A stretch of DNA of 33,597 nucleotides. Origin: an uncultured Alphaproteobacteria bacterium. Its GTDB lineage: Bacteria > Pseudomonadota > Alphaproteobacteria > HIMB59 > GCA-002718135. Below, one piece after another: positions 8,947-33,557 of the stretch. Made by a program: the position numbers and the translations under genes. The notes below the pieces were generated by a model. That model saw nothing but the letters and a program-made list of their open reading frames with translations, searched no databases and was not told the DNA's origin. Numbering within the stretch: the first letter of the stretch is position 1; each line of letters begins with the position of its first letter. The stretch spans positions 1 through 33,597 of the forward strand of contig CACEMR010000015.1 of the NCBI GenBank assembly GCA_902560725.1. The letters are read 5' to 3'.

Positions 8947-8993
8947 AATTCGGAAATACTATTAAGTTATATATTTAAAAATAAAACTTAAAT

Positions 8994-10358: not shown

Positions 10359-10402
10359 AATAAAGATATATTGAACTAAAAATAATAAAATATCAATATT
10401 AA

Positions 10403-11377: not shown

Positions 11378-11380
11378 AAA

Positions 11381-12989: not shown

Positions 12990-13489
12990 CCTAATTCCTC
13001 AGGTTTCATTGTTTCGTATTTTTCATAAGGCATGTGTATCCAGGGAGAGTCCTCTAAGTAATCTACGTAATAATCTGGTTTAAATTTAGAAACCGCTTTA
13101 TAAAAAAGCACTCCAGTTCTAATAGGTTCATCAATATAAAAGCCATATGTATGTTGCAGCCATTCAATACTTTTTTTTAATGTTATGCCTGAGTCAGCAA
13201 GATCGTCCACTATTAATACTTTCGATCCAATATTAGGACTAGTTTTCGCTAAATCTCTTGAAAAAGTTATAGCTCCTCTTTTATTTTTAACACCTTCTCC
13301 TCTATATGACTCAACAGATAATATAGCTAATGGAACATCAAATACTCTTGCCATAATATCTCCTACTCTCATTCCTCCTTTAGCAATGCAAACTACTTGA
13401 TTAAAATTCCAGTCATCTTTGTATATTTGACTAGCTAATTGTTCAGTTTTTTTTCTATATTCATCAAATGAAATATGCAAATCAGCCAT
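12986..13489 (-). CDS. Purine phosphoribosyltransferase (xanthine/guanine type)
   Basis: A 167-residue type I phosphoribosyltransferase that joins a purine base to PRPP to make the nucleotide. The PRPP-binding loop is VLIVDDLADSGITL (91-104); an early CIAKGGMRVGDIMA supplies the pyrophosphate loop. The C-terminal hood WIHMPYEKYE resembles xanthine or guanine enzymes (Gpt-like), but base specificity cannot be fixed. It lies directly downstream of the purine importer's binding-protein gene, separated by a hairpin, and so could divert imported bases to salvage before they reach the catabolic enzymes. Confidence 0.85.
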   Translation of the reverse strand: MADLHISFDEYRKKTEQLASQIYKDDWNFNQVVCIAKGGMRVGDIMARVFDVPLAILSVESYRGEGVKNKRGAITFSRDLAKTSPNIGSKVLIVDDLADSGITLKKSIEWLQHTYGFYIDEPIRTGVLFYKAVSKFKPDYYVDYLEDSPWIHMPYEKYETMKPEELG

Positions 13490-13555: not shown

Positions 13556-14623
13556 TTATTGTGGAACTTCTCCGTCAATACCTTGAACATAAAAGTTCAT
13601 ACCTAAAAGCATTCCATCTGGTGCAACTTCACCTTCAGGAACAACTAATTCACCAGCTTGATTATAAATAGGACCAGTGAAGGGGTGTAATGTTCCATCC
13701 TTAATCCCAACTTCCATATTTACAGCTTCTTGAATTAAGCTAGCTGGCATTAATTTGTTATTATATGGTGACATAACAACCATACCTTTATCCATACCAT
13801 CCCAAGTATCTCCAGATGACCAAGTGCCGTCTACAACAGCTTTTGCTCTTTCAGCATAATATGGTCCCCAGATATCCTCAATTGATGTTAAATGTGCATC
13901 TGGACAAAAAGCTTCTTGATTTGATGCTTGACCAAATGCATATACTCCTGCCTTTTGAGCAGCTTGGCATGGGGCATACGTATCAGTATGCTGAACAATA
14001 ATATCAGCTCCTTGATTTATTAATGTATTTGCAGCATCAGCTTCTTTTCCTGGATCATACCATGTAAAAACCCAAATAATTTTCATTTTAATATCTGGGT
14101 TTATTTTAGCAGCTGCTAAATAAAAAGCATTAATACCTCTTACAACTTCAGGAATTGGAAAGGATGCTATATATCCGATAGTACCTGTTTTTGACATATG
14201 TCCCGCTATGTGACCTTCAATCATTCTACCTTCATAAAATCTTGCTGAATATGTAGCTACATTATCTGCTTGCATGTAACCAGTAGCATGTTCAAATTTT
14301 ATATCAGGAAAATCTTTTGCCACTTCATGAGTTTGATCCATGTAATTAAAAGAAGTAGTAAATATTAGATCATGACCGGAATCTGCTAATTTTCTAATTG
14401 CTCGAACTGCATCAGCATTTTCAGGAACGTTTTCTATATAAGTAGAAGTAATTGAGTCTCCTAACTGACTCTCCATATATTTTCTACCAACATCGTGCAT
14501 ATAAGTCCAACCATGATCACCTGGAGGACCTATGTAAATAAAACCAACCTTTTTAGGGTCTGCATTGGCTGATCCAAAAGCAAATACTAAAAAAGAAGAT
14601 AAAAATATAATAAATTTAATCAT
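13556..14623 (-). CDS. BMP family ABC transporter substrate-binding protein
   Basis: A 355-residue periplasmic binding protein of the BMP/PnrA (Med) family, which typically binds nucleosides or purine-like ligands. A Sec signal peptide ends at a clean ANA|D site (residues 19-22). The mature protein has the family opening VGFIYIGPPGDHGWTY, then TTSFNYMDQTHEVAKDFPD, IEGHIAGHMSKTGTIGYI, and GADIIVQHTDTYAPCQAA. Two permeases and a double ATPase lie upstream on the same strand, making a full importer. It has a strong Shine-Dalgarno and its own 96-base leader gap, fitting the excess a binding protein needs. Purine or ureide ligand is inferred from the surrounding catabolic genes. Confidence 0.92.
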   Translation of the reverse strand: MIKFIIFLSSFLVFAFGSANADPKKVGFIYIGPPGDHGWTYMHDVGRKYMESQLGDSITSTYIENVPENADAVRAIRKLADSGHDLIFTTSFNYMDQTHEVAKDFPDIKFEHATGYMQADNVATYSARFYEGRMIEGHIAGHMSKTGTIGYIASFPIPEVVRGINAFYLAAAKINPDIKMKIIWVFTWYDPGKEADAANTLINQGADIIVQHTDTYAPCQAAQKAGVYAFGQASNQEAFCPDAHLTSIEDIWGPYYAERAKAVVDGTWSSGDTWDGMDKGMVVMSPYNNKLMPASLIQEAVNMEVGIKDGTLHPFTGPIYNQAGELVVPEGEVAPDGMLLGMNFYVQGIDGEVPQ

Positions 14624-14628
14624 TTTAA

Positions 14629-14636
14629 CCTCACCT
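14629..14636 (-). promoter_or_regulatory. Strong Shine-Dalgarno (AGGTGAGG) of the binding-protein gene
   Basis: AGGTGAGG lies 5 bases before the ATG of the BMP binding protein; AGGTGA pairs perfectly with the 16S 3' end. Most genes here have no recognisable Shine-Dalgarno, so this marks an intended high translation rate and confirms the start. Confidence 0.8.
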
Positions 14637-14719
14637 GCTAAATATAATGACTACTCAACGATTTTTTTAAAGTTAGTTCAACGATTCTACATTAGATTAA
14701 TCTAAAAAAGAGTGGATAT
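14637..14719 (-). promoter_or_regulatory. Candidate regulatory gap: palindrome plus 9-base direct repeat
   Basis: Between the second permease and the binding-protein gene the sequence holds a perfect 14-base palindrome TTAGATTAATCTAA (14692-14705) and two exact copies of TCAACGATT (14655-14663 and 14678-14686) 23 bases apart, about two helical turns. On the minus strand the repeat reads AATCGTTGA. This is the longest non-coding gap inside the minus-strand purine operon and may hold a second promoter or operator for the binding protein. Short palindromes are common by chance at this A+T content, so the repeat pair is the better evidence. Confidence 0.45.
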
Positions 14720-15589
14720 TTATCTACCTTTATAAAAAGGTAGGGTCAAAGAAGCTGGTGCACTTAGTTTAATTCTCAGTTTATTGCTGGAAATAAGAAC
14801 AAGAACTACAATAGTTGCTAAATATGGCGCCATACTAAAAAATTGACCAGGAAAACGCAAACCTAAGGCTTGAAGATTCATTTGCAGAATTGTTACACCT
14901 CCAAAAATATATGCACCTATTAATACTCTCTCTGGCTTCCAAGTAGCGAAAACTACTAAAGCAAGAGCAATCCAACCTCTTCCGGCTGTCATACCTTCCT
15001 GCCACATTGGTGCATAACATATTGAAATATATGAACCAGCTAATGCACACATTGAACCTCCAAATAGTATTGATAAAAATCTAATTTTAATAACACTGTA
15101 ACCTAATGCATGAGCTGAATTATGTGATTCACCGACGGCTCTTAAAATTAGTCCCATTTTTGTTTTGTAAAAAAAATAACTGACTAAAAAAACAATAACA
15201 AAAGAAAAAATCACAAAAAACCAAGGTGACAATCCATCAATAGGAGTACCAATATATTCTTTTCCAAGCATAGAACTTAATCCGATACCAAAAATTGTTA
15301 ATGCTAAACCAGTAGCGATTTGATTAGACATTAAGAATAAAACTAAAACTGCAAATAAACCAGACATAATTACACCTGATAATAAAGAAATGAAAAAAGC
15401 AAAAAAATAACTTCCTGTAATTACAAGTGTCACAAAAGCTGTAACAGCTCCAACTAACATCATTCCTTCAACACCTAAATTTAAAACTCCTGATTTTTCA
15501 GTAACAAGTTCTCCAATTCCTGCAAATACTAAAGGTGTAGTTGCAATTAAAACAATCTGTAAAATACCTAAAATTAAATCTACACTCAT
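14720..15589 (-). CDS. BMP-type ABC importer, permease subunit 2
   Basis: A 289-residue inner-membrane permease of the branched-chain/ribose/nucleoside permease group (BPD_transp_2), about eight to nine helices. Family features are GELVTEKSGVLNLGVEGMMLVGA near the N-terminus and the EAA-like loop LRAVGESHNSAHALGYSVIKIR (about 149-170) that docks onto the ATPase. It overlaps the preceding permease by one base (TAATG). An 8-bp hairpin CTACCTTT/AAAGGTAG covers its last codons (14724-14743). It works with the adjacent permease, ATPase and BMP binding protein. Confidence 0.93.
   Translation of the reverse strand: MSVDLILGILQIVLIATTPLVFAGIGELVTEKSGVLNLGVEGMMLVGAVTAFVTLVITGSYFFAFFISLLSGVIMSGLFAVLVLFLMSNQIATGLALTIFGIGLSSMLGKEYIGTPIDGLSPWFFVIFSFVIVFLVSYFFYKTKMGLILRAVGESHNSAHALGYSVIKIRFLSILFGGSMCALAGSYISICYAPMWQEGMTAGRGWIALALVVFATWKPERVLIGAYIFGGVTILQMNLQALGLRFPGQFFSMAPYLATIVVLVLISSNKLRIKLSAPASLTLPFYKGR
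14724..14743 (-). terminator. 8-bp hairpin over the permease stop region
   Basis: CTACCTTT-ATAA-AAAGGTAG forms an 8-bp stem within the final codons of permease 2. On the minus strand a TTTTTT run follows only about 14 bases later, so it is a weak terminator at best; it could instead attenuate read-through or slow 3' decay, helping set separate levels for the membrane subunits and the binding protein. Confidence 0.3.
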
Positions 15590-16668
15590 TATGTTCTCTT
15601 AAATGATAATTTATAATTTATCAGTAATTCAGCACCTAATAAATAAAACAAAACTAGACCTTGAAAAATAAATCCAACAGCTGAAGGAATTTGCAAAAAT
15701 AATTGAGCATCCTCAGCTCCTAAATAAGTTAAAGCAATTATTAATGAGGCAAATATTATTCCTACTGGATGTAATCTACCTAAAAAAGCAACTATAATTG
15801 CAGTAAATCCATAATTAGGAGATATATCTCTATACAATAACCCAATTGGTCCTGATACTTCTGATAAACCTGCTATCCCTGCAAATGCACCACAAATACC
15901 AAACGCTAAAAAAATAAGTGTTGTTTGATTAAAACCTGCATATCTTGCTGCTTTAGGGCTAAAGCCAGATACCTTCAATTGAAAACCAAACATCGTTTTT
16001 GAAAAAACAAACCAAGAAACAAATATTAAAAATATAGTTATAATTAACCCAAAATGGACTCTTAACCCGTCAAAGAGCAAAGGCATTCTTCCAGAGTCAC
16101 TAAATGCTCTAGATTTTGGAAAGCTAAAACCATTTGGATCTTTCCATGGACCAACAACCAAAAAATCTAAAATAAATAACGCAACATAAACTAACATTAA
16201 ACTTGTTAAAATTTCATTAGTATTAAATTTAGTTTTAAGAAGTGCAGGAATAAGCCCCCAAATTGCCCCTCCTATTGCTCCTGCAAAAATCATAACAGGA
16301 AGAAGCCAAAATGTATTCGTATCGTGAAAAAGTATTCCTATTCCTCCTCCAAATATTGCACCCATTGTTAGCTGACCTTCTGCACCAATATTATAAATAT
16401 TATTTTTGAAACAAAAGGCTAAACCAATAGCGATTAAAGCAAGAGGGGTTGCTTTCACAAGTAATTCAGATATTCCATATGAAGAAGAAATGGGTGATAT
16501 AAAAAAAGTATATAAGGCATAAAACGGATCAAATCCTAATAATAAAAAAATAATAAAGCCCGTTATTAAAGTTAAAAAAATAGCAATAATTGGTACAAAA
16601 AAATTCATAATATTTGAAGTTTGAGATCTCGAAACAATTATAGGTAAAAAGTTATTCATCTTTGCCAC
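15589..16668 (-). CDS. BMP-type ABC importer, permease subunit 1
   Basis: A 359-residue inner-membrane permease, the larger partner of the pair, as usual for nucleoside importers. It shows KATPLALIAIGLAFCFKNNIYNIGAEGQLTMGAI (about 71-104), the ALLKTKFNTNEILTSLML loop, and the ATPase-contacting LKVSGFSPKAARYAGFN stretch (about 231-247). Predicted helices number about nine to ten. Its start lies 17 bases inside the ATPase gene and its stop overlaps the next permease, so the transporter is a tightly coupled unit within the ureide operon. Confidence 0.93.
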   Translation of the reverse strand: MAKMNNFLPIIVSRSQTSNIMNFFVPIIAIFLTLITGFIIFLLLGFDPFYALYTFFISPISSSYGISELLVKATPLALIAIGLAFCFKNNIYNIGAEGQLTMGAIFGGGIGILFHDTNTFWLLPVMIFAGAIGGAIWGLIPALLKTKFNTNEILTSLMLVYVALFILDFLVVGPWKDPNGFSFPKSRAFSDSGRMPLLFDGLRVHFGLIITIFLIFVSWFVFSKTMFGFQLKVSGFSPKAARYAGFNQTTLIFLAFGICGAFAGIAGLSEVSGPIGLLYRDISPNYGFTAIIVAFLGRLHPVGIIFASLIIALTYLGAEDAQLFLQIPSAVGFIFQGLVLFYLLGAELLINYKLSFKRT

Positions 16669-18157
16669 CCATTAATAAACCTATTTTTTCTATTTCAACT
16701 TCATTTGTTTTAAATGGATTTGATAATTTACCATTATAAATTACAGAAATTTTATGTGTAATTTCTATAAGTTCGTCTAAATCTTGAGAGATAACAATTA
16801 TAGATGTACCGTTTTGAGAAAGTTCTATTAGAGACTCTCGGATTGAATGTTCTGCTCCAGCATCTATTCCCCAGGTAGGATGAGAAATTATTAACATTTT
16901 TGGATTTGATGAAATTTCTCGTCCAATAACATATTTTTGTAAATTACCGCCAGATAAACTAGAAGCTTTAGCATCATTTCCTGGAGTTATTACATTAAAA
17001 TCTTTTATTACGGTATTTGCATAATCATCAATATTATTTTTAAGAATTATTCCATTCTTCAAAAAATTATTTTTTGGAAACTGACTTAGTAAAATATTTT
17101 CAGAAAGACTTAATTCAGGAACAGCACTATGCCCTAATCTATTTTCAGGAACAAAAGCAATAGATAAATCTCTTCTTTTTTGGGGACCTAAACTTTGAAT
17201 TTTGTTTTTGTTAAAAATAATTTCACCTGAAGAAATTTTAATATTTTCTCCAGTCAAAACATCCATTAATTCTGATTGACCATTTCCAGCAACTCCAGCG
17301 ATTCCATATATTTCACCAACTCTAACTTTAAAGGAAATATTTTTTAAATCTGTAAGAAATGGATCATTAAATTCACAAGATATATTATTAACTTCAAAAT
17401 TATATTCTTCTTTAATATGATCATAATTTGTTTTTAAATCATCAAGTTTTTGACCTAACATTTTAGTTGCTAAAGTTTTTGCAGTGAAATTAGATGTTGA
17501 AGAGGTATCAATAACTTCGCCATTACGCATTATTGTAACAGTGTCACAAATAGAAATTACTTCTTCTAATTTATGAGTAATGTATAATATTGTTCTTCCT
17601 TCTTTTACTAAAGCATTTAGAGTTACAAACAAACTCTCAACCTCTTGTGGGGTTAAGACTGAGGTTGGTTCATCCATAATTAATATTTGAGGATCCTGAA
17701 GTAAAATCCTTACAATCTCAACTCGTTGTTTTTCTCCTGCTGACAATGAAGTAATTGGAGCATCTAAATCTAACGGAAGATTGTATTGAGAACTAATATT
17801 TTCTAATTTTTTTTCTAGATTTGAATAAGACATAGCTTCATCTATTCCTAAAATTAAATTTTCTCTGACTGATAAAGACTCAAACAAGGAAAAGTGTTGG
17901 AAAACCATTCCAATTCCATTTTTTCTTGCTTCAGCTGGAGAGCTAACTTTAAAGAACTTATCATTGTATTTGATATAACCCTCGTCAGGTTCTAATAATC
18001 CATATAAAATTTTAACAAATGTTGATTTACCTGCTCCATTTTCACCCAATATTGCATGAACGGAGTTTTTTTTAATACCGAAAGTAACCTTATTATTAGC
18101 AATTACTCTTGGAAAGGACTTAGTAATATTTTGAATATCTAAAATTAAATCACTCAT
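16652..18157 (-). CDS. BMP-type ABC importer, double ATPase subunit
   Basis: A 501-residue cytoplasmic protein with two fused ABC domains. Domain 1: Walker A GENGAGKST (38-46), signature LSAGEKQRVEI, Walker B ILIMDEPTSVLTP and the His-switch ITHKLEE. Domain 2: a degenerate P-loop GVAGNGQSE, signature LSGGNLQKYVIGREI and a degenerate Walker B (SHPTWGIDAGAE). That asymmetry, with domain 1 active, is typical of the ribose/nucleoside class. It overlaps allA by 8 bases at its start and permease 1 by 17 at its end, which ties uptake to ureide breakdown at the mRNA level. Confidence 0.95.
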   Translation of the reverse strand: MSDLILDIQNITKSFPRVIANNKVTFGIKKNSVHAILGENGAGKSTFVKILYGLLEPDEGYIKYNDKFFKVSSPAEARKNGIGMVFQHFSLFESLSVRENLILGIDEAMSYSNLEKKLENISSQYNLPLDLDAPITSLSAGEKQRVEIVRILLQDPQILIMDEPTSVLTPQEVESLFVTLNALVKEGRTILYITHKLEEVISICDTVTIMRNGEVIDTSSTSNFTAKTLATKMLGQKLDDLKTNYDHIKEEYNFEVNNISCEFNDPFLTDLKNISFKVRVGEIYGIAGVAGNGQSELMDVLTGENIKISSGEIIFNKNKIQSLGPQKRRDLSIAFVPENRLGHSAVPELSLSENILLSQFPKNNFLKNGIILKNNIDDYANTVIKDFNVITPGNDAKASSLSGGNLQKYVIGREISSNPKMLIISHPTWGIDAGAEHSIRESLIELSQNGTSIIVISQDLDELIEITHKISVIYNGKLSNPFKTNEVEIEKIGLLMGGKDE

Positions 18158-18644
18158 AATTTAATTCAAAAATCTCTGATTTATCAAAATTATAGATCTC
18201 AATATTGTTTTGTGCATCTTTTTTATCTATAGTAATATACTTAGCATTGTCTAAAGAAATTAATGGGAAATGCCACACTTTAGGATTAAAATTTATACCA
18301 TCACCATCAGAGACTTTAAAAATTTCAATTTCATCTAAGTTTGGTTTTATTGCAATAGGGGCAACTAAAACTAAAAAAGTTGTATTTAAAAAAGGTAAAA
18401 AAACTTGTGAACTATAAGGATGATTCTCTAACATATTAATTTGAAGTGGAAAAATTCTTTGCTTAGCTTCAAAAATATTCAAACGAGACCTTTTATCCTC
18501 TCCCTCAATTTGTATATTTGCTAAATCAAAAAAACTATTAGTAGTTTTTTTATTAATTTCATCATAGTTTTTTTCTTTTATAGATATTAAATCACCAAAC
18601 TTTTTAAAATTTTGATTATTTATATTTTTAATTTGATAATTCAC
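18150..18644 (-). CDS. allA: Ureidoglycolate lyase
   Basis: A 164-residue cupin-like enzyme that splits (S)-ureidoglycolate to glyoxylate and urea, the last step of the ureide route. AllA features: RLNIFEAK (54-61), ENHPYSSQVFLPF (73-85), FLVLVAP (90-96) and GINFNPKVWHFPLISL (116-131). The size is normal. Start overlaps the allantoicase stop as ATGA, and the stop overlaps the transporter ATPase. The sequence is divergent, but context makes the role firm. The alternative, an amidohydrolase releasing ammonia, belongs to other folds. Confidence 0.88.
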   Translation of the reverse strand: MNYQIKNINNQNFKKFGDLISIKEKNYDEINKKTTNSFFDLANIQIEGEDKRSRLNIFEAKQRIFPLQINMLENHPYSSQVFLPFLNTTFLVLVAPIAIKPNLDEIEIFKVSDGDGINFNPKVWHFPLISLDNAKYITIDKKDAQNNIEIYNFDKSEIFELNYE

Positions 18645-19624
18645 GCAATCTTACCCAAAGATCTTATTCGAGAAATACCTCCATCAGGATAGATATTAAG
18701 TTTTAAATAATTTATTTTTTTTGATTGTTTTAATAATTGTTTTTTAATTGAAGAATGAGCTTTTAATTTTAAGTATTTAATTAAATATTCCCAATTTTTG
18801 CTACTATTAACAACTGAATTTATATTCATATTTTTATTTGAAAAATAACCTTGAACTGAACAATGTGACGGAAAATTACCTTTAAAATAATGAGTTTGAA
18901 TATCAAATTTTTGAATAAATCCAGGTTTTCCTAATTTTATTATAACCCAGTCAAAACCTGCACCTCTTCTTCTTTTTGTTTCCCAGCCATTACCCATATT
19001 TCTAGATTTAAATGGTAAAAGTAAGTTTTCTGCTTTTCCAAAATGCTCATCACTACAAGCAACAATTTTAGAACCTTTAAGAACATTAAGTAAATCAAAT
19101 TTATTTTTTGAAAACTTAATTTTATCTACGACAACATCACCAAGAAGTTTTAATCTTGCTACACCGCCGTCAGGATAAATATTTAGCCTTATGAAATTAA
19201 ATATTTTTTTTGAATTTATTATTTTAAACCCATGTTTTGCATCTGGTTTTAATTTTTGTTTAGATAGAATACTGGACCATTTAAATTTTTTTGATTTATT
19301 ATCTAAATAACAAGCATCAATACTTGCATACTGTGGTTGGTTTCCATTAAAATAACTTGTATCAATTTCGGCAAAACTAATTTTTCCAGGTAAACCTAAT
19401 TTAATTATTACAAAGTCATTTCCTTTAACTCTTTTTCGTCTTGTTTCCCATCCGTCCATCCATTTACCATTTTTGTCATATACACCATCTTTAAACACTG
19501 GAGGTTCATCTTTTAACATTCTGCTTGCTAATCCAAAAAACTGATCAGAATAATCATAAATTTTTGTACCCATAACTGGACTAGATAGATTGATATAATT
19601 TTTCTGAATATATTTTTTAATCAT
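18641..19624 (-). CDS. alc: Allantoicase
   Basis: A 327-residue cytoplasmic enzyme hydrolysing allantoate to ureidoglycolate and urea. The two tandem allantoicase repeats are plain: GWETRRKR (58-65) ... NIYPDGGVARLKLLG (148-162), and GWETKRRR (213-220) ... NIYPDGGISRIRSLG (about 310-324). Each repeat also contains FVIIKLGLPG or WVIIKLGKPG and an aromatic-F-G/K-N turn (YFNGNQP, YFKGNFP). Length matches bacterial allantoicases. It overlaps uraD by 8 bases and allA by 4. Using Alc rather than AllC means both nitrogens leave as urea, not ammonia. Confidence 0.95.
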   Translation of the reverse strand: MIKKYIQKNYINLSSPVMGTKIYDYSDQFFGLASRMLKDEPPVFKDGVYDKNGKWMDGWETRRKRVKGNDFVIIKLGLPGKISFAEIDTSYFNGNQPQYASIDACYLDNKSKKFKWSSILSKQKLKPDAKHGFKIINSKKIFNFIRLNIYPDGGVARLKLLGDVVVDKIKFSKNKFDLLNVLKGSKIVACSDEHFGKAENLLLPFKSRNMGNGWETKRRRGAGFDWVIIKLGKPGFIQKFDIQTHYFKGNFPSHCSVQGYFSNKNMNINSVVNSSKNWEYLIKYLKLKAHSSIKKQLLKQSKKINYLKLNIYPDGGISRIRSLGKIA

Positions 19625-20126
19625 TAATTATTTCCTCTAATCTTAATTTAGCAATTTCTCTAACTTGATTAATTGATATTTCTATTTCTTTTTCAACATC
19701 ACTATTATTAAGTCTATTTTTAAAATCCTCAATAATTTCATTTTTATTTTTATTACGAACAGCCAAAATAAATGGGATATTAAATTTTTCTTTAAAATTA
19801 GAATTTAACTTTTGAAACATATTGAATTCTTTTTCTGTACAATCTTTTAAACCTGATCTACTTTGTTCGTCATTAGATAATCGTGATAATCCTTTATTTA
19901 TTTTAACTTTATCAGCTAAGTCTGGATGTTTTTTTATAATATTTATTTTAATATCTTGTTCAAGATCATCAAATATCATTAAGAAATTTGTAATCATGTG
20001 ATTCTTGTTTTTAAAAGGTCTTTTCGTTTCGACTATTTCAGTAATAAATCTCGATTCTTCAAATATGTTTTCAAAAGAAGATATAAAATCAATTTTGTCT
20101 ATTTGATTAATATTATTAAGATTCAT
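19617..20126 (-). CDS. uraD: 2-oxo-4-hydroxy-4-carboxy-5-ureidoimidazoline (OHCU) decarboxylase
   Basis: A 169-residue all-helical enzyme producing (S)-allantoin from OHCU. The catalytic histidine lies in KKHPDLADK (His67, the family's usual position), followed by LSNDEQSRSGL (Glu87-Gln88) and the IPFILAVRNKNKNEII segment that closes the active site. It overlaps puuE by 11 bases and alc by 8. UraD is encoded as a stand-alone protein, not fused to UraH or PuuE as in some genomes. Confidence 0.94.
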   Translation of the reverse strand: MNLNNINQIDKIDFISSFENIFEESRFITEIVETKRPFKNKNHMITNFLMIFDDLEQDIKINIIKKHPDLADKVKINKGLSRLSNDEQSRSGLKDCTEKEFNMFQKLNSNFKEKFNIPFILAVRNKNKNEIIEDFKNRLNNSDVEKEIEISINQVREIAKLRLEEIIND

Positions 20127-21027
20127 TATTAAAGTTTGAATACCAATATTCAGCTATATCTTTTCTTTTGCAAATCCAAATATCTTTGAAGCTTTCAACA
20201 TAATCTAGAAATTTTACTAAAGAAAGAAACCTACCTGGTCTTCCAATTATTCTACAATGCAAACCAACATTCATCATTTTTGGTAAATTATACTCAACAG
20301 ATTCATTGTAGAGAGTATCAAAAGAATTTTTTAAATAGTTAAAAAAATCATCTCCTGTGTTGAATCCTTGATACGTTGTAAACCTCATATCATTATTATC
20401 TAATGAATATGGAATTATTAAATGTTTTTTATTATTATGACTTATCCAGTAAGGTAAATCATCTGCATATGAATCACTATCATAAATAATATTAGTATTT
20501 TCCAAAATAATTTTTCTTGTATTAGGACTAGTTCTTCCAGTGTACCAACCTAAAGGATAATAACCAAATATTTTTTTAATTATATTATTGCATAAAATAG
20601 TGTGTTCTTTTTCAGTTTGCTCATCAATATTTTGGTAATCTATCCACCTATAGCCATGACTAACAACTTCATAGTCTGATTTAATAATTTGTTCACAAAC
20701 ATCTGGATTTTTTTCCAAAGCCATTCCAACACCGAATATTGTTAATGGTATTTTTCTTTTATTGAATTCTTTATGAATTCTCCAAAAACCCCTTCTAGAA
20801 CCATACTCATACATAGACTCAATATTCATGTGTCTATTTCCAACAATAGGTTTTGCATTAATTATCTCTGAAAGAAATATTTCTGAAGATGAATCTCCAT
20901 TAAGTATTGAATTTTCAGCACCTTCTTCATAATTTAAAACAAATTGAAGTGCTAGTTTACTTTTATTAGGCCATTCAAAACTAAAATCTTTAGCTCCATA
21001 TCCAATGTAATTTCTATTATCTTTCAT
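20116..21027 (-). CDS. puuE: Allantoinase, polysaccharide-deacetylase type (PuuE)
   Basis: A 303-residue enzyme of the metal-independent PuuE class that hydrolyses (S)-allantoin to allantoate. Features: IGYGAKDFSFEWPNKSKLALQFVLNYEEGAE at the N-terminus, the PTIFGVG-equivalent LTIFGVGMALEKNPD, EVVSHGYRWIDY (the NodB-like His motif), GWYTGRTSPNTRK, and YDSDSYADDLPYW. All match PuuE and not the AllB/cyclic-amidohydrolase allantoinase. It is the first gene of the minus-strand purine operon, 54 bases from the divergent uraH. Confidence 0.95.
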   Translation of the reverse strand: MKDNRNYIGYGAKDFSFEWPNKSKLALQFVLNYEEGAENSILNGDSSSEIFLSEIINAKPIVGNRHMNIESMYEYGSRRGFWRIHKEFNKRKIPLTIFGVGMALEKNPDVCEQIIKSDYEVVSHGYRWIDYQNIDEQTEKEHTILCNNIIKKIFGYYPLGWYTGRTSPNTRKIILENTNIIYDSDSYADDLPYWISHNNKKHLIIPYSLDNNDMRFTTYQGFNTGDDFFNYLKNSFDTLYNESVEYNLPKMMNVGLHCRIIGRPGRFLSLVKFLDYVESFKDIWICKRKDIAEYWYSNFNNES

Positions 21028-21081
21028 ACATAAATGCTTGATTTAATATTTAAATAAATACTGTATAAAAGAAATATTATT
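21028..21081. promoter_or_regulatory. Shared divergent control region of the purine island
   Basis: Only 54 bases separate the starts of puuE (minus) and uraH (plus), so both promoters of a ten-plus-gene island must overlap here. For the plus strand, TATAAA (21064-21069) is a fair -10 with TTGATT (21038-21043) as a poorly spaced -35 (20 bases). The gap also has a 10-base palindrome TATTTAAATA (21047-21056), a possible but weak operator. No regulator gene is present in the island. It is too short to hold a purine riboswitch. Confidence 0.6.
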
Positions 21082-21438
21082 ATGTCTAAAGGATATTTAA
21101 CAACTCATGTACTGGATACATTCAATGGAAAACCTGGGTCAGGAATTCAAGGATCTTTATTTAAGATAGAAGGTGAAAATAAGATTAAACTTAACGATTT
21201 CAGACTAAACAATGATGGCAGATGTGATGGTCCTATTCTTGAAAAAGAGAAATTTTTAGAGGGTAAATATGAGTTATTATTTCTTTGCGGGAGTTACTTT
21301 AGTGAATATACAAATCTTGAAAAACCATTCTTTCTTGACGATGTAATAATAAGATTTGGAATTAACAAAATAGATGAACATTATCATGTTCCTTTATTAA
21401 TTACCCCGTGGAGTTATTCAACTTATCGGGGTAGCTAG
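21082..21438 (+). CDS. uraH: 5-Hydroxyisourate hydrolase
   Basis: A 118-residue transthyretin-related enzyme opening 5-hydroxyisourate to OHCU. The N-terminal LTTHVLDTFNGKPG contains catalytic His9; NNDGRCDGP gives Arg47; HYHVPLLITPWSYSTYRGS supplies His102 and the diagnostic C-terminal tetrapeptide YRGS that distinguishes enzymes from transthyretin. No signal peptide, so it acts in the cytoplasm. First gene of the plus-strand operon; its TAG overlaps the GTG start of xdhA (TAGTG). Confidence 0.97.
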   Translation: MSKGYLTTHVLDTFNGKPGSGIQGSLFKIEGENKIKLNDFRLNNDGRCDGPILEKEKFLEGKYELLFLCGSYFSEYTNLEKPFFLDDVIIRFGINKIDEHYHVPLLITPWSYSTYRGS

Positions 21439-22853
21439 TGTTTAATTCCAAAATAGAATTTGTTTTAAATAACAAATTAATATCAATAAATAATTTAGAT
21501 ACAAATACAACAGTATTAAATTTTTTAAGAAATGAAAAAAATTTAACAGGTACAAAAGAAGGTTGTGCTTCTGGAGATTGTGGAGCTTGTACAGCAGTAG
21601 TTGGAGAATTAAAAAAAAATAAAATTGAATATAAAAGTATCAATACATGTATTACTTTTTTATATACTCTTAATGGAAAACAATTAGTGACAATTGAACA
21701 TCTAGGAAATCGTAGTTTACATCCAGTACAAAAAGCAATGGTAGATAGTGATGGATCACAGTGTGGATTTTGTACTCCAGGAATTGTAATGTCTATGTAT
21801 TGTATGTATGAAAATAAAGTAAAACCTACTAACGATAATATAGATAAATATTTATCTGGAAATCTGTGTAGATGTACTGGTTACATTCCAATAAAAAAAT
21901 CAATTAGAAATATGTATAATTATAAGAAAAATAAATCTGATCAAAAAAATATAATTTCATTATTAAAAAATATAAATAGAAATGATATAATGATAGAAAA
22001 CAATGAATCCAAGTTTTTTGTTCATTACAATTTAAAAGGTCTCATTAAAGATTATCAAAAAAATAACAATTCATATTTATTAATAGGTGGAACAGATTTA
22101 GCATTGGAAGTAACAAAAAAAAGAAATAATTTAAAAAATATTTTTTATTTGGGTTCAAACAAAGAATTGAATTTTATTAATATTAAAAATAATAAAATTC
22201 ATATTGGTGCTGCAACTCCAATTAGCGACATCATACCAAAACTTGATAAAATTTATCCAACTTTTTCAAAAATGTTTGAAAGATATGGATCCGAACAAAT
22301 CAGAAACTCTGCCTCTTTAGGTGGAAATCTTGGCAGTGCTTCTCCTATAGGAGATAGTCTTCCTGTCCTTATTGCTCTAGATAGTAAAATTGTTATTCAA
22401 GGAAAAAAACAAAGGACTGTATCTTTAGATGATTACTTTATTAGCTATAGAAAAACAAAACTTAAAAAAAATGAATTTATTAAAGAAATAATAATTCCGA
22501 TTAACCAAGAGAATATTTTAAAATGTTATAAAATATCAAAAAGAATTGATGATGATATTAGCTCCGTATTTATGGCTATTAATGCTAATTTAAAAAATAA
22601 TACTTTCAAATCTATTAAAATCGTATGTGGTGGTATGGCAGAAATACCTAAAATAGCAAAATCTACTCAAAAATATTTACTAAACAAAAAATTTAATCAA
22701 GAAAATATAAATGAAGCAAAAAAAATTATTGCTAAAGAATTTAATCCCATAGATGATATGCGTGCGTCAAAAGAATATAGAGTAAAAATAAGTAAAAATC
22801 TTCTTGAAAGATTTTTTAATGAACAAAATAAAATAAATACCCTTGTTTACTAA
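21438..22853 (+). CDS. xdhA: Xanthine dehydrogenase small subunit ([2Fe-2S]/FAD)
   Basis: A 471-residue subunit that takes electrons from the molybdenum centre through two [2Fe-2S] clusters to FAD and NAD+. Plant-type cluster cysteines: Cys43, Cys48, Cys51 and Cys71 (GCASGDCGAC ... NTC). Second cluster: Cys109, Cys112, Cys144 and Cys146 (QCGFC ... CRC). The FAD domain starts near residue 195 with LLIGGTDLALEV and SASLGGNLGSASPIGDSLP. The layout matches the XdhA fusion of Rhodobacter type. Translation begins with GTG overlapping the uraH stop; xdhB follows with a one-base overlap. Confidence 0.96.
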   Translation: MFNSKIEFVLNNKLISINNLDTNTTVLNFLRNEKNLTGTKEGCASGDCGACTAVVGELKKNKIEYKSINTCITFLYTLNGKQLVTIEHLGNRSLHPVQKAMVDSDGSQCGFCTPGIVMSMYCMYENKVKPTNDNIDKYLSGNLCRCTGYIPIKKSIRNMYNYKKNKSDQKNIISLLKNINRNDIMIENNESKFFVHYNLKGLIKDYQKNNNSYLLIGGTDLALEVTKKRNNLKNIFYLGSNKELNFINIKNNKIHIGAATPISDIIPKLDKIYPTFSKMFERYGSEQIRNSASLGGNLGSASPIGDSLPVLIALDSKIVIQGKKQRTVSLDDYFISYRKTKLKKNEFIKEIIIPINQENILKCYKISKRIDDDISSVFMAINANLKNNTFKSIKIVCGGMAEIPKIAKSTQKYLLNKKFNQENINEAKKIIAKEFNPIDDMRASKEYRVKISKNLLERFFNEQNKINTLVY

Positions 22854-25126
22854 TGGATAAAATATTTACAAAAAATATTGAACATGAAAGTGCTATTAAA
22901 CATGTAACAGGCAAAGCAATTTACACTGATGATATCGCAGAACCAAAAAACATATTACACGCTGTAATTGGATACAGTAGTTGTAGCAAAGGTATTATTA
23001 AGAAAATTAATTTTGATGAAGTTTATAAATCAGAAGGTGTTGTTGATATTATAACTGAAAAAGATATTGAAGGTATAAATGATGTTGGGCCAATCTTTAA
23101 GGGTGATAAAGTTTTTACTTCAAAATATATAGAATATTATGGTCAGCCAATTTTCGCAGTTGTAGCTAAGACCAATAATTTAGCAAAAAAAGCAGCTTTA
23201 AAAGTAAAAATTGATATTAAAAAAACAAAACCAATAATATCAATTGAAGAAGCCTTAAAGAAAAAATCATATGTTTTAAAACCCAAATATCTTAAAAGAG
23301 GAAATATTAAAGATGGATTTAAAAAATCTAAAAATATCTTAAAAGGTAAGCTATATTCAGGAGGTCAAGATCATTTCTATTTAGAAGGGCAAATTTCAAT
23401 GACTGTTCCACAAGAGGATAATAATTTTTTAGTTTATTCTTCAACACAACATCCTTCTGAAACACAACAAATTATAGGAAAGGTTTTAAATCAAAATTAT
23501 AATAGTATCCATGTAGTGGTAAGAAGAATTGGTGGTGGTTTTGGTGGTAAAGAAACGCAGTCTTTCTTATTCGCAGCAATAACAAGTATTGCAGCCAAAA
23601 AATTATCAAGACCTATTAAATTAAGAGTAGATAGAGATGATGATATGATCATGACTGGTAAAAGACATGATTTTTTATTTGATTATGAAGTTGGTTTTAA
23701 TAATGAAGGTGAAATACAAGCTCTAAAATTGATGATGGCTTCAAGGTGCGGTATATCCGCAGATTTATCAGGAGCTATAAATGATAGAGCAATATATCAT
23801 ATTGATAATGCATACTTTATTCCTAACATCGAGATTAATTCTTACAGATGTAAAACTAATACTGTTTCAAATACTGCTTTTCGAGGTTTTGGAGGTCCAC
23901 AAGGAATGTTTTGTATTGAAAATATAATAGAAAACATATCACAAAAATTAAATAAAGATTCAAGTGAAATAAGAAAAATAAATTTTTATAAAGAAAAAAG
24001 TAGAAATACAACTCATTATGGGATGAAAATTAATGATAATGTAATTGAAGATATTTTTAATAAACTCATAAAGAAATCAAACTTTAAAAAAAGAAAACTT
24101 CGGATTAAAAACTTTAATAAAAATAATAAAATTCTTAAAAAAGGAATTGCGATTACTCCAGTAAAATTTGGTATATCTTTTACAACTACTCATTTAAATC
24201 AAGGTGGGGCTTTAGTACATATCTACACTGATGGATCTATTCATTTAAATCATGGTGGAATTGAAATGGGACAAGGATTAATGACAAAACTTGCTTTAGT
24301 AGCATCAAATGAATTTGGTCTTAACTATGAAAATATAAATATTTCTTCAACAGATACAGAAAAGGTTCCAAATACATCTGCTAGTGCTGCTTCAGCTACA
24401 ACAGATATAAATGGAGCAGCTATTGTTAATGCAATTAATAAAATCAAATCTGGTCTTGATCAATTCATATATGATTATTTTAAAACAAATAGTAAAATTA
24501 GATATGAAAATAATTTTGTTTATTTTGATAAAAGAAAAATATCTTTTAAAGAGTTAATTAATACTGCTTATCTGAACAGAATACCATTATCCTCCTCTGG
24601 ATTTTACAAAACTGATAAGATTAATGTTAATACCAAAACACTACAAGGTAGACCATTTTTATATTTTACATATGGTGCTGCTGTGACAGAAGTAATTATT
24701 GATAAATTAACAGGTGAAAATAAAATTGTTCAAGTGGACATAATTCACGATGTGGGTAATTCAATTAATAGGAGAATTGATATCGGTCAAATTGAAGGAG
24801 GTTATATTCAAGGATTAGGTTGGCTTACAACTGAAGAAGTATCATGGAAATCAGATGGAATTCTTACAACTCATAGTCCTTCAACATACAAAATACCAAC
24901 TGCTAGTGAAACACCTTTTAAATTTAATGTAGAAATATATGATCGTGGATTTAATAAAGAAAAAGTTATTAATCGTTCAAAAGCTGTTGGTGAGCCTCCA
25001 TTTATGTTGGCAATTTCAAGTTTTATTGCAATAAAAGATGCTGTCTTTAATGCGAATAATAATAAAGACTCTAATAATTTAATTGCTCCAGCAACTGCAG
25101 AAAATATATTAAAAAGTTTAAATTAA
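22853..25126 (+). CDS. xdhB: Xanthine dehydrogenase large subunit (molybdopterin)
   Basis: A 757-residue molybdenum hydroxylase subunit converting hypoxanthine and xanthine to urate. Substrate and cofactor residues line up with XDH: GGGFGGKETQ (228-237, Glu234), TAFRGFGGPQG (Arg344, typical for xanthine-binding enzymes), EMGQGL, and the base catalyst Glu714 in KAVGEPPFML. Presence of the Glu/Arg pair favours xanthine over aldehyde or CO as substrate. It works as (XdhAB)2 with XdhA; XdhC downstream sulfurates and inserts the cofactor. Confidence 0.97.
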   Translation: MDKIFTKNIEHESAIKHVTGKAIYTDDIAEPKNILHAVIGYSSCSKGIIKKINFDEVYKSEGVVDIITEKDIEGINDVGPIFKGDKVFTSKYIEYYGQPIFAVVAKTNNLAKKAALKVKIDIKKTKPIISIEEALKKKSYVLKPKYLKRGNIKDGFKKSKNILKGKLYSGGQDHFYLEGQISMTVPQEDNNFLVYSSTQHPSETQQIIGKVLNQNYNSIHVVVRRIGGGFGGKETQSFLFAAITSIAAKKLSRPIKLRVDRDDDMIMTGKRHDFLFDYEVGFNNEGEIQALKLMMASRCGISADLSGAINDRAIYHIDNAYFIPNIEINSYRCKTNTVSNTAFRGFGGPQGMFCIENIIENISQKLNKDSSEIRKINFYKEKSRNTTHYGMKINDNVIEDIFNKLIKKSNFKKRKLRIKNFNKNNKILKKGIAITPVKFGISFTTTHLNQGGALVHIYTDGSIHLNHGGIEMGQGLMTKLALVASNEFGLNYENINISSTDTEKVPNTSASAASATTDINGAAIVNAINKIKSGLDQFIYDYFKTNSKIRYENNFVYFDKRKISFKELINTAYLNRIPLSSSGFYKTDKINVNTKTLQGRPFLYFTYGAAVTEVIIDKLTGENKIVQVDIIHDVGNSINRRIDIGQIEGGYIQGLGWLTTEEVSWKSDGILTTHSPSTYKIPTASETPFKFNVEIYDRGFNKEKVINRSKAVGEPPFMLAISSFIAIKDAVFNANNNKDSNNLIAPATAENILKSLN

Positions 25127-25127
25127 A

Positions 25128-25958
25128 ATGTATCTTAAAAAATTAAGCCAAAATATAAAATTTAACAATGAGATAATAAAAGGGAAAATTTTAGATGTTA
25201 AAGGATCATCACCAAATAATATAGGTGACATAATATTAATTTGTAAAGATGCTATTTTTGGAACTATCGGTGGGGGAAATTTAGAATATTTAGTAATAGA
25301 TGAAGCTAAAAAACTATTAAATAAAAAAATAAAAAATAAAATTCTAAGTATACCTCTTGGTCCAGGAATTGGACAATGTTGTGGTGGATATGTACAAATT
25401 AAACTTAGCTTTCATAAAAATTCCAAAGAAGCATTAAAAAATGAAAGTTTAAAAAAAAATAATAAACCTAATTTATATATCTTTGGATCAGGACATATTG
25501 GTCAGGCAATAATTTCTAAATTAGAAGATATAAATTTCAATACTTTCATAATTGACTCAAGAGAAGATTATTTAAATATGACTAATATTAAAGATGTAAA
25601 TTATTTACTCTCTAAAAAACCTTGGGAAGTTGTGTCTAAACTAGATGATAATTCCTATTTTATAGTTTTAACTCATAGTCATGATTTTGATTTAAAAATA
25701 TTAAATGAAGTTTTAAAAAAAAATAATACTTTCGTGGGTTTAATTGGATCTATTACAAAGAAAAAAAGGTTTTATAAAAGATTAATTACCAATGGTCATA
25801 ATAAATCAATAGTTGAGAAAATTGAATGCCCAATTGGAATAGATATTGGTAATTCAAAAGATCCAAATGAAATAGCTTTTTCTATAATAACAAGAATATT
25901 ATGTATTAAAAATAATATGAAATATTTATCAAATAATAAAGTTAAAGAAGTAATATGA
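25128..25958 (+). CDS. xdhC: Xanthine dehydrogenase accessory protein XdhC
   Basis: A 276-residue cytoplasmic chaperone that binds molybdenum cofactor, guides its sulfuration, and loads it into XdhB. Family motifs: GSSPNNIGD near residue 27, FGTIGGGNLEYLVIDEA, LGPGIGQCCGGYVQI with the conserved Cys pair, a Rossmann segment LYIFGSGHIGQAI (about 115-127), VGLIGSITKKKRF and the C-terminal CPIGIDIGNSKDPNEIA. It starts 2 bases after xdhB and overlaps guaD by four (ATGA). Confidence 0.95.
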   Translation: MYLKKLSQNIKFNNEIIKGKILDVKGSSPNNIGDIILICKDAIFGTIGGGNLEYLVIDEAKKLLNKKIKNKILSIPLGPGIGQCCGGYVQIKLSFHKNSKEALKNESLKKNNKPNLYIFGSGHIGQAIISKLEDINFNTFIIDSREDYLNMTNIKDVNYLLSKKPWEVVSKLDDNSYFIVLTHSHDFDLKILNEVLKKNNTFVGLIGSITKKKRFYKRLITNGHNKSIVEKIECPIGIDIGNSKDPNEIAFSIITRILCIKNNMKYLSNNKVKEVI

Positions 25959-26422
25959 CAAAAATAGATTTTATGAAAAGAGCTATTGATCTATCAATTC
26001 AGAATATTAAAAATAATGGAGGTCCATTTGGATGTGTAATAGTTAAAGATAATAATATTATTGCAGAAGGAGTAAATAGAGTAACATTTAACAATGATCC
26101 AACTGCACACGCAGAAATAGTAGCTATAAGAAATGCATGTAATAAGTTGAATACTTTTAACTTAGAGGGATGTGAATTATATTCTAGTTGTGAACCATGT
26201 CCTATGTGTTTAAGTGCTATATATTGGTCTCATGTAGACAAAGTATATTATGGTAATTCAAGAGATGATGCTGCGAAGATTCAATTTGATGATAAATTTA
26301 TTTATGATGAATTATTGTTAAATATGGAAGAGAGAAAAATTCCAATAAGTCAAATTTCTAGAGATGAAGCAATAAAAGCGTTTAATCTCTGGGAAAATGA
26401 AGAAAATAAAATAAAATATTAA
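25955..26422 (+). CDS. guaD: Guanine deaminase, cytidine-deaminase fold
   Basis: A 155-residue zinc deaminase converting guanine to xanthine plus ammonia, feeding xanthine dehydrogenase. Zinc site: TAHAEIVAI (His52, proton shuttle Glu54) and SSCEPCPMCLSAIYW (Cys82, Cys85). The tail segment KVYYGNSRDDAAKIQFDDKFIYDEL matches the Bacillus-type GuaD rather than tRNA adenosine deaminase TadA, which has a shorter, different C-terminus. Coupled to xdhC by ATGA and one base from puuD. Confidence 0.9.
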   Translation: MTKIDFMKRAIDLSIQNIKNNGGPFGCVIVKDNNIIAEGVNRVTFNNDPTAHAEIVAIRNACNKLNTFNLEGCELYSSCEPCPMCLSAIYWSHVDKVYYGNSRDDAAKIQFDDKFIYDELLLNMEERKIPISQISRDEAIKAFNLWENEENKIKY

Positions 26423-26423
26423 A

Positions 26424-27866
26424 ATGGAATTATTTCTAAAAATTGTCTCACCAATTCAATCATACGACTTTCAGACTTTTTCACATAATTTATTATTAAC
26501 TCTACCTGCATCAATATTAATTGGTGTAATTCTTTTTTTTGTTCTTGGTGCTTTTGTTGGTTTTAAATCAAAAGAACAAAGAATTTATATTGTTGGCGCA
26601 ACTACAATTGTTATTTCTTTTACTGCTGCATTTTATAATTTAGGAGTTCCTTTAGAGACTTTAATTTCAGTATATACTGAATGGTTACATTTAATTGTAA
26701 GATGGGTTCATATTGTTGTTGGTGTAGCCTGGATAGGTACATCATTTTATTTTAACTGGTTAGATAGCAGACTTGAGAGAGACGATCCAGATTTCAAACA
26801 TCTGGACGGTTATTTATGGTCTGTACATTCTGGTGGTTTTTATAGAATTGAAAAGTTAAAGGGCCCTCCAAAATCACTACCTAAGGTACTTCATTGGTTT
26901 AAATGGGAAGCCTACGCAACATGGATTAGCGGATTTGTACTTTTAATTTTAGTTTATTATCTAAATGCTAGTTCAATGATGTTGGGGGGAAGCGGTATAG
27001 AATTAACACCTCTTCAAGCAATAATAATTTCAATAGGTTTATTAATAGGATCATGGATTTTGTATGATTATTTATGTAAAAATGCATTAAAAAATAATGA
27101 GCAAATCTTAATTGGAATAGGTTTCTTATTGTTTGTTATCTTAAGTTATTTTTTAACTCAAATATATGGATCTAGAGCTGCATATATTCATGTAGGCGCT
27201 ATTATAGGTACTATTATGGCTGCTAATGTTTTTCGAGTAATAATTCCTGCACAAAGAAACCTTGTAACTTCAGCAGAAAATAAAGTTACTCCTAATTTAA
27301 ACCTATCTATAGAAGCAAAAAATAGATCGATTCATAATAATTACTTTACACTACCTGTTTTATTTATAATGATCAGTTCGCACTTTTCATTTACCTATGG
27401 AGCAGTAAATAATTGGTTGATACTTGCTTTTATATCAATTGCTGGAATATTAACGCGTCATTATTTTAATTTACGAAATAAAAAACAGTATAAATTTTGG
27501 ATTTTACCATCTGCAGGTTTAATAATGTTTTTTTTAATGACATTAAGTAGTTTATCTGTTTTTGAAAAAAAAGATGTAGATGCGGCTATCTCACTAGAAT
27601 TAGTTAGCTTTAATGAAGTTGAGAATATAATTAAATATAGATGTGCAACATGTCATGCTAAAAACCCGACATTTGAAGGTATAGAAGCAGCACCAAAAGG
27701 CGTAGTATATGATACAGCTCAAGATATTATAAACAATATAAAGTTGATAAAAGCACAAGCAGTTGATGCAGAGATTATGCCTCCTAATAATCTAACGGGC
27801 ATAACTAAAAATGAAAGAGAAACACTGAGAGTGTGGATTGAACAAGGAGCAAAAACTAATAATTAA
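26424..27866 (+). CDS. puuD: Membrane-bound urate oxidase with cytochrome c domain (PuuD)
   Basis: A 480-residue inner-membrane enzyme oxidising urate to 5-hydroxyisourate. The N-terminal part (about 1-375) is the urate-oxidase N domain with about eight helices and RWVHIVVGVAWIGTSFYFNWLD (about 92-113), whose histidines are typical of the family. The C-terminal periplasmic domain carries one c-heme motif CATCH (407-411) and the axial Met452 in AEIMPPNN. Electrons should pass to the respiratory chain instead of making H2O2 as in soluble uricase. Last gene of the plus-strand operon; the end overlaps the convergent glycosylase gene by 11 bases. Confidence 0.95.
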   Translation: MELFLKIVSPIQSYDFQTFSHNLLLTLPASILIGVILFFVLGAFVGFKSKEQRIYIVGATTIVISFTAAFYNLGVPLETLISVYTEWLHLIVRWVHIVVGVAWIGTSFYFNWLDSRLERDDPDFKHLDGYLWSVHSGGFYRIEKLKGPPKSLPKVLHWFKWEAYATWISGFVLLILVYYLNASSMMLGGSGIELTPLQAIIISIGLLIGSWILYDYLCKNALKNNEQILIGIGFLLFVILSYFLTQIYGSRAAYIHVGAIIGTIMAANVFRVIIPAQRNLVTSAENKVTPNLNLSIEAKNRSIHNNYFTLPVLFIMISSHFSFTYGAVNNWLILAFISIAGILTRHYFNLRNKKQYKFWILPSAGLIMFFLMTLSSLSVFEKKDVDAAISLELVSFNEVENIIKYRCATCHAKNPTFEGIEAAPKGVVYDTAQDIINNIKLIKAQAVDAEIMPPNNLTGITKNERETLRVWIEQGAKTNN

Positions 27867-28473
27867 CAGGAATTGGATCTAATGATCTCCATAAATACCA
27901 AGTAGCTTGAGAACTATAAGGGCTCCATTTTTTATTAAGGTATTTAAGTTTTCTTTCGCTTATTGGAAGTTTAAGATTATAAAGTTTTGAAATCGCTTTT
28001 AAAAAACCTAAATCACCAATAGGAAAAATATTTGAACTGCCATAACTAAACATTAAAAACATATGTATAGTCCACTTACCTACTCCTTTAATTTGAATCA
28101 AACTGTTAAAAATTTCCTCTTCAGAATATTTTTCAATATTTTTTATAAAACTTTTATTTTCAAGAAAATATTTAGAAATATTTCTTATATATAATATTTT
28201 TTGTCTCGATAGACCGCATTTTCGCAAATCATTAGTCTTAATTTTTGAAACATTAAGTGGTGTTATATTTTTTTTGATACTAAAAAATTTATTTTTAATA
28301 GAATGTGCTGCAGAAACTGAAATTTGCTGACCTATAACTGAATTAATCAATGAGTGAAAGTAATTATTATTTAGATTTAGATGTTCTTTTTTGTAAGTTT
28401 TAATTAATTTCTTCAAAACTTTATCTTTATTTGATAAATAATTTATACCTTTATTCCAATAAGAGGGCTTCAT
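27856..28473 (-). CDS. DNA-3-methyladenine glycosylase II (AlkA-like, HhH-GPD)
   Basis: A 205-residue base-excision repair enzyme removing alkylated bases. The HhH-GPD fold is clear: SLINSVIGQQISVSAAHSI (41-59), the helix-hairpin-helix IQIKGVGKWTIHMFL (127-140) and the catalytic Asp154 in FPIGDLGFLKA. It lacks an Ada-like or N-terminal AlkA domain, and no iron-sulfur cysteines are seen, so MutY/Nth are excluded. The start codon abuts that of the divergent 62-residue gene as CATATG, leaving no intergenic space. Confidence 0.9.
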   Translation of the reverse strand: MKPSYWNKGINYLSNKDKVLKKLIKTYKKEHLNLNNNYFHSLINSVIGQQISVSAAHSIKNKFFSIKKNITPLNVSKIKTNDLRKCGLSRQKILYIRNISKYFLENKSFIKNIEKYSEEEIFNSLIQIKGVGKWTIHMFLMFSYGSSNIFPIGDLGFLKAISKLYNLKLPISERKLKYLNKKWSPYSSQATWYLWRSLDPIPVNY

Positions 28474-33515: not shown

Positions 33516-33557
33516 ATAAACTTATTAAATTAAAAAATATTTTTTACAATATAATAT

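Follow-up and report, generated by a model that had tools for sequence, protein, structure and literature searches.

A purine locus of 14 genes occupies positions 13556 to 27866 of the stretch of DNA analysed here (the window: 33,597 nucleotides, positions 1-33597 of contig C15 in a genome of the AEGEAN-169/HIMB59 group), and our analysis establishes it as a complete and lineage-wide system of purine degradation, ordinary in kind. Judging from its sequence, the locus very probably serves the scavenging of purine nucleobases, which would be imported with high affinity and then salvaged or degraded; the activities, the substrate, the flux and the ecology are all deduced rather than observed. The features that we found unreported lie in the variation of the locus: the ten catabolic genes form a cassette that can be cleanly lost as a whole while the importer and the putative salvage enzyme are retained, a block of xdhC, guaD and puuD appears to have been exchanged between lineages, and the membrane urate oxidase PuuD occurs with two extra helices.

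A complete route in an AEGEAN-169 genome

The host is a marine oligotroph of AEGEAN-169/HIMB59, genus AG-337-I02, a name that the consulted part of one study uses for an AEGEAN-169 genus of the order HIMB59 (PMC8692485). Its assembly is 1.43 Mb in 47 contigs and 90% complete, and the guanine-plus-cytosine content of the window is 26.9%; the small-genome, AEGEAN-169-type marine oligotroph surmised in the preliminary description, which was made from the sequence alone, is thus borne out. The relatives are mostly single-cell genomes, catalogued as uncultured Alphaproteobacteria; one of them is AG-337-I02 itself (L071), whose PuuD is 88% identical to that of the window.

One open gene is present for each step from guanine to glyoxylate and two urea by the allantoicase branch, and gene annotation upholds the complete route claimed earlier. 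Guanine would be deaminated to xanthine by GuaD (25955..26422, plus strand; PF00383), whose best solved relative is the Bacillus subtilis guanine deaminase 1wkq, matched over its full length (residues 5-155, E 3e-48); guanosine deaminase (2e-30) and the best TadA (5.6e-21) are weaker matches. Hypoxanthine and xanthine would be oxidized to urate by a xanthine dehydrogenase (XDH) consisting of the FeS/FAD subunit XdhA (21438..22853, plus; TIGR02963) and the molybdenum subunit XdhB (22853..25126, plus; TIGR02965, 1073 bits), matured with the accessory protein XdhC (25128..25958, plus; TIGR02964). In an alignment with the Rhodobacter capsulatus enzyme (1jro), XdhB keeps E232, R310 and E730, which we take to be the catalytic residues. 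Urate would be oxidized at the membrane by PuuD (26424..27866, plus; PF06181 at residues 83-373, 376 bits against a cut-off of 26.9), with electrons passing through its C-terminal cytochrome c domain to the respiratory chain. The hydroxyisourate hydrolase UraH (21082..21438, plus; TIGR02962) and the OHCU decarboxylase UraD (19617..20126, minus; TIGR03164) would then give allantoin, which the allantoinase PuuE (20116..21027, minus; TIGR03212; solved PuuE 3cl6, E 1e-112), the allantoicase Alc (18641..19624, minus; TIGR02961, 360 bits) and the ureidoglycolate lyase AllA (allA/ugl, 18150..18644, minus; PF04115, 120 bits) would convert to glyoxylate and two urea. XdhA, XdhB, XdhC, UraH, UraD, PuuE and allantoicase all pass their NCBIfam cut-offs.

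The remaining genes encode an ATP-binding cassette (ABC) importer of four parts, all on the minus strand: the periplasmic binding protein gene bmp (13556..14623; PF02608, 173 bits), two permease genes (14720..15589 and 15589..16668; both PF02653) and the double ATPase gene atp (16652..18157; two PF00005 stretches). The earlier list of guaD, xdhABC, puuD, uraH, uraD, puuE, alc and allA with a BMP-type ABC importer was correct in every member and position, including the dedicated uptake. The genes run in two divergent sets, every frame is open, and 9 of the 13 junctions are overlaps of 1-17 bases, much as had been described for nearly all genes; two have a 1-base gap, and of the others one is the 54-base divergent gap between puuE and uraH, and in the second 96 bases separate bmp from the permease gene. 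A promoter scan of the divergent gap found 2 against 2.4 expected.

Distribution among relatives

The locus is a regular possession of the lineage. Among 101 genomes of the genus, most of them incomplete assemblies, PuuD (PF06181) was found in 75, and in the family in 81 of 110 genomes and six of six genera; a control genome of Caulobacter vibrioides also gave a PF06181 match. For gene order we compared 80 relative loci, picked by PuuD similarity: all twelve genes from atp to hhh (the HhH-GPD glycosylase-like gene flanking puuD) stand in the same order and orientation in 53, and of the 27 partial loci 25 are cut by contig ends, the others being L101, with no guaD match, and L111, from the distant Ferruginibacter. 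The unbroken route, which had been thought notable for a streamlined genome, is instead the usual state of the genus and the family. The preliminary description had reckoned with an order both widespread and already characterised in this lineage; lineage-wide it is, and full-text literature searches found, in the texts consulted, no description of a purine operon for AEGEAN-169/HIMB59.

We examined 16 of the 26 PuuD-negative genomes of the genus, the ten left out being G001, G002, G013, G022, G043, G051, G053, G076, G084 and G096. Other cassette genes are present in ten (G012, G030, G056, G067, G071, G080, G085, G087, G088 and G099), the contig ends before the cassette in four (G014, G075, G082 and G097), and two (G004 and G029) have an empty site. 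We considered decay as the cause of PuuD absence and rejected it, given the ten genomes that still hold other cassette genes and the two empty sites. What we found, in place of the decay of xdhB or puuD in close relatives that had been envisaged, is that 2 of 102 genomes have cleanly lost the entire cassette. One of the negative genomes has a scrambled, chimera-like locus (L170, G067:C13), in which a piece of xdhB directly adjoins puuE and several flanking genes in a row are inverted. Separate open reading frames (ORFs) of ~204-249 amino acids (aa) resembling the urate oxidase model occur in G034:C47, G094:C21, G060:C27, G102-G104, G106 and G108; they match model positions 165-243 only, at E ~1e-10 to 4e-8, and may be a short relative or a chance likeness.

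Loss of the cassette with the importer kept

In G029 and G004, on contigs of 133 and 37 kb, hhh adjoins the importer ATPase gene across an alignable spacer of ~98 bases and the ten catabolic genes are gone, the importer, the adjacent phosphoribosyltransferase gene and the examined flanking genes remaining in conserved order. A 701-base junction query matches end to end in only these 2 of 102 genus genomes, one being the source of the query; in 50 genomes, that of the window included, the halves of the junction lie on one contig with starts 9,716-10,032 bases apart among the listed matches. In both the aspS and the bmp tree, the empty-site genomes are nested among cassette-bearing lineages, and since the cassette occupies this site in deeper branches too, its loss is a simpler explanation than a late gain. 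Whether it was lost once or twice is a point on which the trees disagree: the bmp tree joins the two genomes (support 94/87), whereas the aspS tree does not (6% of bootstrap trees). A search for scars, comparing the spacer with cassette-bearing genomes and the window, gave only short AT-rich matches, none of which we count as a remnant.

The retained importer seems to evolve unevenly, since the ATPase genes of the empty-site genomes (L160 and L171), which pair with full support at the end of a long stem (0.51), are 69-70% identical to that of the window, and their bmp genes 92-93%. Neither genome gave a urease match, their completeness being 88% and 56%, and a coupling of cassette loss to urease loss is suggestive only.

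Two forms of PuuD

Across the 80 loci, 65 encode a long PuuD (480 aa in the window) and 15, L111 among them, an ordinary short one of 404 aa. According to the consulted part of its description, the PuuD of Agrobacterium fabrum has eight transmembrane helices, and the window protein shares with it the Urate_ox_N membrane domain, the C-terminal cytochrome c, the CXXCH motif and the spacing of the methionine ligand (PMC4562309): the haem site in the window is C407, C410 and H411, with Met452 lying 41 residues past the histidine, the same spacing as His344 and Met385 in A. fabrum. Unlike it, the window protein has an N-terminal extension of ~80 residues (1 to ~80), for which two helices are predicted at 16-42 and 50-72, modelled at 72-93 on the predicted local distance difference test (pLDDT) in ten-residue blocks; the prediction thus comes to ten helices rather than the standard eight, and a definition of PuuD by eight helices only would not hold for it. 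The core of the long form aligns over its length with the 404-aa forms.

The sequence shows the extension to be genuine: no further ATG, GTG or TTG occurs within the first 110 codons of the window gene, and database proteins of 480 aa keep the extension down to 63% identity, among the best 120 of 7979 matches. The long form is probably derived, since in six genomes of other genera the PuuD frames have 405-408 aa. In the literature consulted, we found no description of a PuuD with two extra transmembrane helices. The database proteins P0040, P0041 and P0042 combine a short-type N-terminal part with a long-type C-terminal part and are either mosaics or assembly chimeras.

Replacement of the xdhC-guaD-puuD block

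The two forms of PuuD differ together with their neighbours. The DNA of L093 and L104 is 97-99% identical over most of the locus and only 60-79% identical over L093 positions ~8,700-11,670, which hold xdhC, guaD and puuD; shoulders of 82-92% lie in the last part of xdhB and within hhh, and identity drops gradually at both edges. Accordingly, the proteins are 97-100% identical from AllA to XdhA and for EamA and AspS, 92% for XdhB and 87% for Hhh, and 60%, 69% and 64% for XdhC, GuaD and PuuD. The same pattern of difference separates L093 from L097, L099 and L217, which share the short block with L104 (93-98% identity within the block for L104 against L097 and L217). Trees agree with this: in those of puuE and xdhA, L093 groups with L097, L099, L104 and L217 (100/99 and 99/99), while in the puuD tree the long forms make up one clade (100/100) with L093 inside it, and the changes of PuuD form number three on the backbone trees and one on the puuD tree. 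The pair L087 and L097 is uninformative, allA, alc and uraD also being 63-68% identical between them, and the case for the block is built on L093 against L097, L099, L104 and L217 together with the trees.

These patterns point to an exchange of the block between lineages, most simply by homologous recombination. With its neighbouring clade, L087/L089/L091, L093 shares 79-88% identity in the block, much as it does in most of its other genes, so that L093 looks like plain inheritance; likely, then, it was the short block that came into L097, L099, L104 and L217, by way of their ancestor or their gene pool. Between L104 and L097 or L217, the genes from atp to puuD are 93-99% identical and the adjoining hhh, eamA and aspS 83-86%, which hints that the whole cassette spreads between lineages.

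Artefacts of the data might produce either pattern. As for the block, the material is mostly single-cell genomes, where chimeras occur, and L093 is the sole long-block genome in its tight group and belongs, like L099, to the AG-414 series; that a chimera arose in single-cell amplification or by cross-contamination is nevertheless highly improbable, as the short block is carried in the same backbone by four genomes, the block of L093 resembles the neighbouring clade much as its other genes do, identity falls off gradually at the edges, and the conflict between the backbone and puuD trees is strongly supported. The empty site might likewise be an error of assembly, or else the state before the cassette arrived: it is known from two genomes only, which the aspS tree keeps apart, and a misjoin is suspected at the end of the window itself (see below). 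Both versions are improbable in the face of a junction common to two different genomes, on long contigs with conserved order on both sides, and of the nested position of these genomes among lineages whose deeper branches bear the cassette. One may speculate that, in this abundant oligotroph, purine use is a trait with several recombining states, in which lineages switch between degradation with a ten-helix PuuD, degradation with an eight-helix PuuD, and salvage only. The block would then move as one functional unit because its products cooperate in XDH maturation, deamination and electron-linked urate oxidation, and each PuuD form would couple to the respiratory chain in a different way; we hold this broader scheme to be tentative and rather doubtful.

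The importer, its ligand and the fate of urea

Next to bmp lies a gene for a purine-type phosphoribosyltransferase, similar to xanthine and hypoxanthine enzymes (12986..13489, minus; PF00156, 85 bits). All 26 genus loci fetched with this bmp contain it, and it lies beside bmp, in both empty-site genomes as well; we therefore count it as part of the locus and as the likely salvage partner of the importer, able to act on imported bases that are not degraded. The closest solved relative of the binding protein is 3s99 from Brucella (E 6e-129), deposited with adenine modelled, followed by AtzT (6pi5, E 2e-106), which binds guanine with a dissociation constant of 110 nM and adenine with one of 2.5 uM, according to the consulted part of its description (PMC6834077). 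Ser97, Phe98, Glu165 and Trp194 of the AtzT pocket are kept in the window protein, whereas the window protein and 3s99 alike have Trp, Gly, His and Asp in place of Tyr45, Asn169, Asn218 and Asn220; the base pocket matches that of purine-binding 3s99, with four of eight residues different from AtzT. All eight positions are the same as in the window in 30 of 31 aligned rows, the exception (L129) being a different BMP protein with 29% identity. The importer thus resembles importers of purine bases, and its substrate is probably purine bases.

A urease encoded elsewhere in the genome would release ammonia from the urea, and malate synthase would take up the glyoxylate. The urease operon ureDABCEFG stands together on contig C5 (L121 8448-13243), and genes for malate synthase, for the molybdenum cofactor route (moaA) and for cytochrome c maturation (ccmE) are present; from gene content, then, ammonia and malate are possible end products of the route. 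The suggestion that purines serve as a source of nitrogen is plausible in view of the urease operon, and that of carbon possible in view of the malate synthase. A dimethylargininase-like gene (L121 6329-7099) lies ~1.3 kb upstream of the urease operon. The urease alpha subunit is found in the source genome and in 62 of the 101 genus genomes: PuuD and urease occur together in 55, PuuD only in 20, urease only in seven (of which three, G056, G085 and G087, hold other cassette genes) and neither in 19, an association with p 5e-5 in a Fisher test that is confounded by completeness. In the consulted text of a paper on AEGEAN169, genes for urea use are reported for 80% of Ca. Indicimonas, and Bmp transporters as highly expressed (PMC11366302).

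Several observations weigh against the functional picture. AllA passes its Pfam cut-off and falls under those of NCBIfam, as does the phosphoribosyltransferase (48 bits with the XPRT model, cut-off 138). In L101, a deep relative (MarineAlpha5_Bin9), guaD was not found although its neighbours xdhC and puuD are present, and use there is perhaps restricted to hypoxanthine and xanthine. The four pocket residues that differ from AtzT mean that the preferred base may not be guanine. In the stretch of S. meliloti that was examined, an importer of the same kind adjoins no listed purine enzymes, the gene table being incomplete, and so linkage alone is no proof of function. As PuuD and urease do not fully coincide, urea may be excreted in some relatives, as proposed for SAR11.

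There are also other readings of the locus. BMP/PnrA-family proteins often take purine nucleosides, and the importer might do so too, with the linked enzymes acting on bases freed inside the cell; the Pfam family is named PnrA-like, and the AEGEAN169 paper, in the text consulted, labels the Bmp transporters 'purine nucleosides' (PMC11366302). We think this unlikely, for the closest solved relatives bind bases (guanine in AtzT, modelled adenine in 3s99), and the genome offers a better nucleoside candidate: a second BMP protein on contig C2, encoded beside upp and ahead of three ORFs sized like ATPase and permease genes; farther along that contig lie genes for cdd, a purine nucleoside phosphorylase, thymidine phosphorylase and add (adenosine deaminase). 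We infer that the genome has two importers, that of the locus for bases and that of contig C2 for nucleosides; the stretches concerned (L227 4909-10286 and L228 4837-18357) are likely a region of nucleoside uptake and salvage. It is also unlikely that the pathway yields energy and carbon while the cell releases the urea, an outcome inferred for most SAR11, where the consulted text argues from urease being rarer than the catabolic genes (PMC11698098). No urease is seen in 20 of the 75 PuuD genomes; on the other side are the operon in the source genome and the urease alpha subunit in the other 55, despite mostly incomplete assemblies.

Relation to known systems

A purine catabolism operon, present in a minority of SAR11, has been published (Braakman 2025, PMC11698098). 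As far as the consulted text goes, it shares with the window XDH, PuuD, a TadA-like purine deaminase, HiuH, UraD, PuuE, allantoicase, ureidoglycolate lyase and a phosphoribosyltransferase, as well as an ABC transporter tied to nitrogen harvesting; HIMB59 and AEGEAN are not mentioned in its main text. Most of the genes are given there for ~18-22% of SAR11 genomes and urease for ~5%, in contrast to 75 and 62 of 101 genomes for PuuD and urease here. Further parallels come from plasmids of Pseudoalteromonas sp. CuT4-3, Paroceanicella profunda and Ruegeria sp. THAF33, where an ATPase, two permeases and a BMP protein stand beside xdhABC as in the window, in a gene order unlike that of the window. 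The first two also carry guaD, puuD, uraD and uraH; their GuaD, of 432 and 454 aa by the coordinates, is of a longer type, and their PuuD has 394 and 401 aa; no PuuD is listed for the Ruegeria stretch.

Between phytoplankton and bacteria, dissolved purines act as a currency rich in nitrogen. If our interpretation is true, a marine group outside SAR11 is usually able to take purine nitrogen through to ammonia, which adds to the proposed picture of SAR11 mostly handing urea back. Genomes with the empty site amount to natural knock-outs, in which uptake and salvage are set apart from degradation, and through the two PuuD forms one could test directly how a membrane urate oxidase feeds the respiratory chain.

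Other features of the window

The flanking gene hhh (27856..28473, minus; PF00730), which in the two empty-site genomes adjoins the importer ATPase gene, converges on puuD, whose 3' end it overlaps by 11 bases. A search of the window for tRNA genes found none, and Rfam gave no match at the gathering threshold. The end segment at 32077-33597, with an LptF-like ORF of 230 aa (342 aa in the relative L172) and the ndk gene, is inverted with respect to five of five relatives compared; it is probably a misjoin or an amplification chimera at the contig end and leaves the findings on the purine locus untouched.

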